DNA of 48,799 nucleotides, taken from positions 1 through 48,799 of the forward strand of contig JAFXXD010000018.1 of assembly GCA_017542475.1 (NCBI GenBank), read 5' to 3'. Every line of letters starts with the position of its first letter. Position 1 is the stretch's first letter. Of this stretch, positions 34,678-35,225 are shown piece by piece. Both the position numbers and the translations under genes were made by a program. The notes below the pieces were generated by a model. The model was not told the origin of the DNA and did not search any database. It was given only the letters and a program-made list of their open reading frames with translations. Source of the DNA: Ruminococcus sp. Its GTDB lineage: Bacteria; Bacillota; Clostridia; Oscillospirales; Ruminococcaceae.

Positions 34678-34706
34678 AACGGCTCCCTTTCGGGAGTCGT
34701 TTTTTT
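34678..34706 (+). terminator. Terminator of the fatty acid operon
   Basis: CGGCTCCC and GGGAGTCG form a stem closed by TTTC, followed by seven T. Confidence 0.87.
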
Positions 34707-34803: not shown

Positions 34804-34831
34804 TTGACTTTCTGTGAGATTTATGTATAAT
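34804..34831 (+). promoter_or_regulatory. Promoter of the double-glycine peptide gene
   Basis: TTGACT (34804-34809) and TATAAT (34826-34831) are 16 bp apart. Confidence 0.75.
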
Positions 34832-34881
34832 TATAAATACAGAGAGCGAAAAACTCGGAAAATTAAAAGGAGGTCATCCAT

Positions 34882-35178
34882 ATGGCAGAAATTATTAAGG
34901 ACGAAAAGGATCAGAACATTGATGCAGAAGCAATTGATCTTGAACAGCTCGATAACGTAAACGGCGGTGCTTATATGCACGACCCCGGTGTGTTTAGGCA
35001 GATGCGTTTTATCTTCAATGAACAAGATGTTGAGATCCTCAAAAGCAGAGGCTATAACGTGCAGGCTAATCGCGAGTATTCAAGAGGCCAGCTGAATGAT
35101 ATGGGTATCCCCGGTAGTACAGGCGGCAAGGTTAAGGCATTCTTGAACGACCTTGGCATATATGTTGAGGAGATATGA
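34882..35178 (+). CDS. Double-glycine leader peptide (candidate secreted peptide precursor)
   Basis: A 98-residue precursor. Residues 1-29 form a charged leader ending in DLEQLDNVNGG, which fits the double-glycine leaders cut by C39 peptidase ABC exporters. The core of 69 residues begins AYMHDPG, contains no Cys, is strongly charged and has GIPGSTGGK near the end. That is unlike classic class II bacteriocins, so a signalling or modified peptide is also possible. AGGAGG precedes ATG 34882. The gene has its own promoter and a strong terminator, with no exporter, immunity or modification gene next to it. Confidence 0.75.
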   Translation: MAEIIKDEKDQNIDAEAIDLEQLDNVNGGAYMHDPGVFRQMRFIFNEQDVEILKSRGYNVQANREYSRGQLNDMGIPGSTGGKVKAFLNDLGIYVEEI

Positions 35179-35191
35179 TGGATCAGCTTAT

Positions 35192-35225
35192 CCCCGAAGC
35201 GTTTCAAAGCGCTTCGGGGCATTTT
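35192..35225 (+). terminator. Terminator of the peptide gene
   Basis: CCCCGAAGCG and CGCTTCGGGG form a 10-bp stem, followed by CATTTTATTTT. Confidence 0.82.

Follow-up and report, generated by a model that had tools for sequence, protein, structure and literature searches.

Among the known systems nearest to the gene described here are the NHLP and Nif11-type precursors and the NHLM exporter (TIGR03794/03796/03797). According to Haft et al. 2010 (PMC2887384), NHLP and Nif11 peptides combine one conserved leader with many cores, and the NHLM exporter comprises two ABC proteins, the first of which carries a C39 peptidase. The gene considered here has in common with these systems the Gly-Gly, a conserved leader and hypervariable cores in paralogous sets, and exporters with the same two-ABC organization occur in the loci of its relatives. 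In contrast, its leader is short (29 residues) and without an NCBIfam match, its core is a 69-residue, Cys-free domain and no exporter was found in its genome.

The LahA/ProcA (LahT) and FlvA (FlvT) sets likewise place many cores behind double-glycine leaders. Bobeica et al. 2019 (PMC6363468) report that LahT recognizes positions −4, −7 and −12, as Val, Leu and Leu; the leader described here carries Val, Leu and Ile. In the same paper LahA and Flv are clusters with an exporter (nine LahA and 12 Flv substrates), whereas the present gene stands alone and encodes a core without Cys. Double-glycine sets are known in Ruminococcus flavefaciens, namely Flv of FD-1 with the exporter FlvT (PMC6363468) and lanthipeptides (PMC13289728). 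The class II bacteriocins (Bacteriocin_IIc) are alike in having a double-glycine leader without obvious modification enzymes, but our protein matches no such family, its core has a net charge of about −1 and no immunity gene was recognized by reading its neighbours. LahA and Flv substrates are modified peptides.

The precursor gene

The gene lies on contig JAFXXD010000018.1 (C36) of the Ruminococcus sp. assembly GCA_017542475.1, in a stretch of 48,799 nucleotides that we refer to as the window. Other genomes, contigs and loci are labelled G, C and L. The gene is placed between acpP, with acc genes (named by reading) upstream, and a gene for a P-loop (CbiA/ParA-like) protein. The features are:

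34678-34701, + strand, terminator-like hairpin 3′ of acpP (10 pairs and a T run), which sets the precursor gene apart from the fatty-acid operon
34804-34831, + strand, sigma-70-type promoter-like site, TTGACT-16-TATAAT (11 of 12 consensus matches; pattern evidence only)
34868-34873, + strand, AGGAGG ribosome-binding site, from the sequence, 8 nt 5′ of the ATG
34882-35178, + strand, double-glycine precursor ORF, 98 codons for 98 amino acids, ATG start
34882-34968, + strand, 29-residue double-glycine leader ending DLEQLDNVNGG (leave-out profile of 15 other leaders)
34969-35175, + strand, 69-residue core, the predicted mature protein from Ala30 to Ile98, about 7.88 kDa (homology to the core of a 124-residue ORF, L002/L069; a homologous frame in G339 is truncated)
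34975-35010, + strand, MHDPGxFRQMRF, conserved start of the core (11 of 12 residues the same as in the full-length relative)
35192-35219, + strand, terminator-like hairpin 3′ of the precursor gene (12 pairs, eight of them G-C, with a T-rich tail)

The ORF sequence bears out the first-pass annotation in its description of a 98-residue product with a 29-residue leader ending DLEQLDNVNGG. That annotation also saw an independent gene, on the grounds of a strong ribosome-binding site, a promoter and a terminator. The ribosome-binding site and terminator-like hairpins are present, and the hairpins on both sides suggest a separate transcription unit; two hairpins of this type are seen in the region and 0.9 are expected. 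The promoter is a matter of pattern only, with three such sites in the region compared with 2.3 expected from shuffles. This count is close to chance, so that only the quality of the site at 34804 is notable.

The leader

Is the leader a genuine export tag? It is acidic, with a charge of about −7.5, and ends in IDLEQLDNVNGG, the Gly-Gly being residues 28-29 of the precursor. The hydrophobic positions are Val-4, Leu-7 and Ile-12, as the −4/−7/−12 pattern demands. The Glu at −8 of the ComA consensus, as quoted in PMC6363468, is missing since the leader has Gln-8 and Glu-9; in the 15 leaders used for the profile the residue at −8 is Gln, Lys or Ala.

The profile of these 15 related leaders, constructed without the window gene, placed the ORF at the top of 1273 six-frame segments with an E-value of 4.2e-5. 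The next-best segment gave 0.37 and the best reversed segment 6.8. Because a profile that is independent of the gene ranks the ORF first, and far ahead of the next segment, the leader is judged genuine and, on sequence grounds, a member of the C39/NHLM-linked leader family of the genus. The NCBIfam models, including the Nif11-type leader model TIGR03798, gave no match for the window protein at E up to 10.

Related leaders in the genus belong to short proteins that start MTDEMxKNLxNEELDLEQLExVSGG, MTDNINKNIENEELDLEQLENVSGG and similar. A six-row profile, which includes the window leader and has rows from G299, G314, G359 and G392, gave matches in nine of the 125 genus genomes at E≤0.05, with one match in the gene's own genome; G303, G308, G322 and G368 are the independent carriers. 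The first-pass annotation had proposed to search the rest of the genome for other genes with LEQLDxVxGG leaders; this profile gave the one match there, and its further matches are in the eight other carriers.

The core protein and its relatives

The core has no Cys, eight Lys or Arg and nine Asp or Glu. It had been described as Cys-free, strongly charged and unlike a class II bacteriocin; the first point stands, as does the third in that no class II family matches, but the core, though charged, is near neutral overall.

There was no match for the window protein in Pfam and NCBIfam at E up to 10, bacteriocin models included, none for the whole protein in PADLOC and PHROGs and none among phage and plasmid proteins at E up to 1. 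A profile search of viral contigs returned 18 pattern stretches and no relatives. Among genome contigs a single-protein search returned 68 pattern stretches, again with no relatives, and a profile search 118 stretches with one relative. At the level of the order, 394 genomes were searched with the core profile, and the only match at E≤0.01 was in the genome that carries the window; G192 and G339 are not among the matches and were presumably not in the sample. In the family, 58 of 297 genomes gave a match at E≤1, with G192 at E 1e-13. The own genome, G192 and, for the leader only, G035 were kept, and the remaining matches (E 0.005 to 1) were dropped as chance, most of them on a motif scan alone. 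In the genus, 23 of the 125 genomes matched at E≤0.1; among those with loci the matches, as read or motif-scanned, are leaders before other cores, long unrelated proteins and one truncated core relative, in G339.

The full-length relative, in G192, is the 124-residue ORF of L002/L069 (50% over residues 15-75). Conservation of the Gly-Gly in homologues had been named as a point on which the double-glycine reading depends, and this relative keeps the Gly-Gly, together with MHDPGxFRQMRF, although its leader is of a different type. Over 27 ungapped codons the two genes differ ten, eight and 18 times at positions 1, 2 and 3, respectively. Of the 16 residues that are identical, ten are encoded by different codons, as are eight of the 11 identical residues in MHDPGxFRQMRF. 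Since the differences concentrate at the third position and identical residues are encoded differently, the core is, by its codons, a conserved protein. The leader of this homologue (L002, in RUG12579) is longer and Nif11-like by eye only, since NCBIfam, TIGR03798 included, gave nothing for the protein at E up to 0.01.

In G192 the gene for this homologue (L045:8086-9731, G192:C24) is situated 174 bp after a Fic/DOC gene (PF02661), with IS66 transposase genes (PF03050, PF05717) about 2.4 kb upstream. By reading, neither Fic/DOC nor IS66-type genes adjoin the window gene.

The only core relative seen by profile search in the 124 other genus genomes is a truncated one in G339 (L172:1-774, G339:C41). 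Directly adjoining it on the opposite strand, near a contig end, is a phage-type integrase that is likewise truncated. A tRNA 3′ end is discernible by eye near 110-165 of this locus; ARAGORN finds no tRNA on the contig.

An AlphaFold2 model of the core has a pLDDT of 81 and a pTM of 0.64. A small folded body may lie behind the conserved mature N-terminus, MHDPGxFRQMRF. None of the structural matches has so far been convincing, and literature searches found nothing on this core. On the basis of those searches and the family libraries the core is a new family, matching no described one.

Could the frame have arisen by chance, or encode an ordinary cytosolic protein with an accidental Gly-Gly at the end of a helix? 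Short Gly-Gly motifs occur frequently, and the searches yielded just two homologues of the core, of which one is truncated. This explanation is nevertheless very improbable, given the E-value with the independent leader profile, the codon-position pattern of a conserved protein and a full-length homologue that divides at the Gly-Gly into another leader and the same core.

Exporters beside the leader family in relatives

A PF03412 exporter is found no more than about 7 kb from leader matches in G299 (two of two), G392 (two of two), G303 (one of five) and G368 (one of three), and members of the leader family occur inside the exporter loci L171, L136 and L138. In G308 none of the four leader matches is near the exporter; one further leader gene, read by eye, is part of the exporter locus. 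The exporter pairs of G192, which has the core relative, and G035, which has leader genes, were those scored with the NHLM models. Against TIGR03796 (cut-off 853) they reach 925 and 890 bits, respectively, and against TIGR03797 (cut-off 709) 714 and 696.5 bits, the last being just under. The exporters of G299, G303 and G308 resemble these pairs by eye. The exporter loci also include genes for a STAS protein, tested in G192, and for a DUF7005 protein, for which G303 and G308 were tested; DUF7005 (PF22541) is found between a Gly-Gly precursor and the exporter genes at L136:9698-10546 and L138:9686-10519.

Overall 45 of the 125 genus genomes have a PF03412 match above the cut-off and 80 have none. 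There is no significant enrichment of C39 matches among leader carriers (five of the eight others, compared with 40 of 116, p 0.14).

A genome without a recognizable exporter

The assembly to which the window belongs comprises 2.66 Mb in 57 contigs, with a completeness of 93.99%. A search with PF03412, whose controls were positive in eight of 14, gave no matches above the cut-off, the best being 17.1 of 22 bits. When the whole protein is scored, the best C39 match, L031 (349 residues), reaches 22.3 bits with PF03412, for which the cut-off is 22. It was rejected as an exporter, being a Peptidase_C39_2 protein (95.3 bits) that reads as a lipoprotein without an ABC part, and the second weak match, a 346-residue frame in L032, was set aside as a protein similar to it. 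With the G192 exporter as query there are 43 ABC matches, none of which includes the peptidase part (none begins before query residue 170). The contig that carries the window has none of these 43 and neither of the two weak C39 matches. The first-pass annotation stated that no exporter, immunity or modification gene is near; this holds for the exporter, and for immunity and modification genes it was judged by reading the ORF list only.

Two further sites were considered. In the own genome the counterpart of the DNA around the G308 exporter locus is on contig C32, the match extending over the glutamine synthetase gene and beyond. In C32, well inside a contig of 113 kb, glutamine synthetase adjoins a GGDEF-EAL protein and there are no exporter genes; the GGDEF-EAL protein is 73% identical to one near the G303 exporter locus. 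At the second site a fragment of an ABC exporter runs off the edge of contig C14. It was rejected as a cut C39 exporter in that MsbA-type models fit better (302 bits versus 221 for TIGR03796). The fragment resembles other ABC exporters encoded in this genome more closely than it does NHLM ones, and the genes beside it read as ECF transporter genes.

The first-pass annotation concluded that the partner must be elsewhere and suggested a search of the rest of the genome for C39 ABC transporters. The search revealed none above the PF03412 cut-off and none at the G308-equivalent site, and with no exporter-type C39 peptidase in an assembly that is 94% complete the conclusion was not upheld. We consider it likely that a C39 exporter is truly absent from the strain.

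The opposing view is that the product is a working secreted peptide and that the exporter of the strain lies in the 6% of the genome that the assembly lacks. The incomplete, fragmented assembly means that an exporter could be missed, C39 exporters are present in two close relatives that carry leader arrays (G303 and G308), and the precursor gene looks intact. Against this, the site in C32 is present and without an exporter, the 43 ABC matches all leave the N-terminal peptidase part uncovered and the 80 genus genomes without a PF03412 match make absence a frequent state. A hidden exporter is, in our estimation, unlikely.

Alternatively, the leader may no longer serve export, and the whole 98-residue protein, or the core cut by another protease, would act inside the cell. 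Three other leader carriers, G314, G322 and G359 (73%, 94% and 85% complete, respectively), also have no C39 match above the cut-off. However, the family profile still gives the leader a good score, and after the loss of export the Gly-Gly and hydrophobic positions would be expected to drift. An intracellular role is accordingly quite improbable.

Origin of the gene

By comparison with G308 and G303, in which the neighbouring P-loop gene is 92% identical and acpP 99% and 96%, respectively, the flanks are native. In five close relatives the P-loop gene is preceded, on the other strand, by a gene for a dockerin-type protein, which the own genome and G397 lack. In the three relatives with acpP in the locus, the dockerin-type gene sits between acpP and the P-loop gene.

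The dockerin protein (L108:2363-3097, with relatives in L109, L110, L111 and L112) is secreted and has a Thr-rich linker. PF00404 matches with E 1.4e-9, tested in L108, and the C-terminal domain resembles Colicin D very weakly (E 0.043, below the cut-off). This is possibly a cellulosome-type toxin-like protein.

The precursor gene has a GC content of 0.444 and a GC3 of 0.49, compared with GC3 of 0.60-0.77 in seven measured neighbours. The low GC is weak as evidence of transfer because acpP next door is also low, at 0.458. From the native flanks, the lack of the dockerin-type gene, GC and GC3, the rarity of the gene in the genus, the integrase in G339 and the IS66 element in G192 taken together, we infer that the precursor gene is mobile and arrived recently.

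One leader and many cores

Cores of the type LIVDCG..YRIVDDKTGEILD follow related leaders in G035, G308, G314 and G359, and glycine-repeat cores in G303, G308 and G314. Further types are VITNPTSGNK, NFVIVGGNN, a zinc-ribbon-like CKHCGQK core, KKDDPNNA repeats and a short core with ICPECSS. Two more cores contain Cys and follow longer leaders, and the window core is a type of its own. When 11 representative cores were compared all against all, the sole clear pair consisted of two LIVD members; the next, VITN and LIVD, has an E-value of 0.031 with 27% over 41 residues. Since only the LIVD pair matches clearly, there are ten core types, two of them perhaps distantly related. One glycine-repeat core protein, from G308, matches Bacteriocin_IIc weakly (E 0.0048, below the cut-off). 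Three short-leader genes occur in a row in G303, and in G308 three short-leader and two Nif11-like genes do so. In sequence terms the leader family is a one-leader, many-cores set, as are the NHLP and Nif11 peptides.

Two Nif11-like Gly-Gly precursors with zinc-ribbon-like cores are located directly before a radical SAM/SPASM protein (PF04055, PF13186) at L168:16361-18535 (G308:C20), a possible modified-peptide cluster. By the exporter locus L171 there is a 499-residue protein (L171:3472-4968, G299:C16) with a Nif11-like leader ending LEDLEGVGGG. It has a weak match to the PBECR1 phage-type nuclease domain (20.7 of 27.6 bits) and a similar protein is found in G392 (L058). Judged by these sequences, larger effector-like proteins may use the double-glycine route.

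A broader and more tentative idea, which we regard as possible though rather doubtful, is that one short leader has been fused by recombination to many apparently unmodified protein-sized cores, zinc-ribbon-like and glycine-repeat cores included. Leader-core genes would then spread as mobile orphans into strains without an exporter, and cores would switch leader types exactly at the Gly-Gly. The window gene would be one such orphan, perhaps a cargo cassette or a protection against the exported form.

Conclusions

The observation on the gene and its leader is confirmed and the interpretation placed on it in the first-pass annotation is partly supported. The explanation we favour, and which on balance is probable, is a true double-glycine precursor whose product is a small secreted protein and whose core belongs to a new family, the gene having arrived horizontally and been orphaned from its exporter. 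By inference from the family, the leader would be read by an NHLM-type C39 exporter as in the relatives, the C39 peptidase binding Val-4, Leu-7 and Ile-12 and cutting after Gly29, and the 69-residue core would be exported as a small folded protein. The gene itself would have been gained by horizontal transfer or recombination. In this strain the export step cannot run with any exporter seen, so the product would stay uncut inside the cell unless an exporter is encoded in the missing 6% or otherwise supplied. The intact ORF, ribosome-binding site and terminator argue against a long-dead relic. By analogy, the exported core would most likely be an inter-bacterial effector or bacteriocin-like protein, a signal being less likely.

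The change of leader type with retention of the core at the junction provides a clean case on whether cores move between leaders. The one-leader, many-cores repertoire is more interesting than the single gene. The findings suggest that double-glycine precursor genes are able to stand alone without an exporter, and that Ruminococcus-related bacteria place the double-glycine tag on many kinds of small protein, not only on classical bacteriocins.
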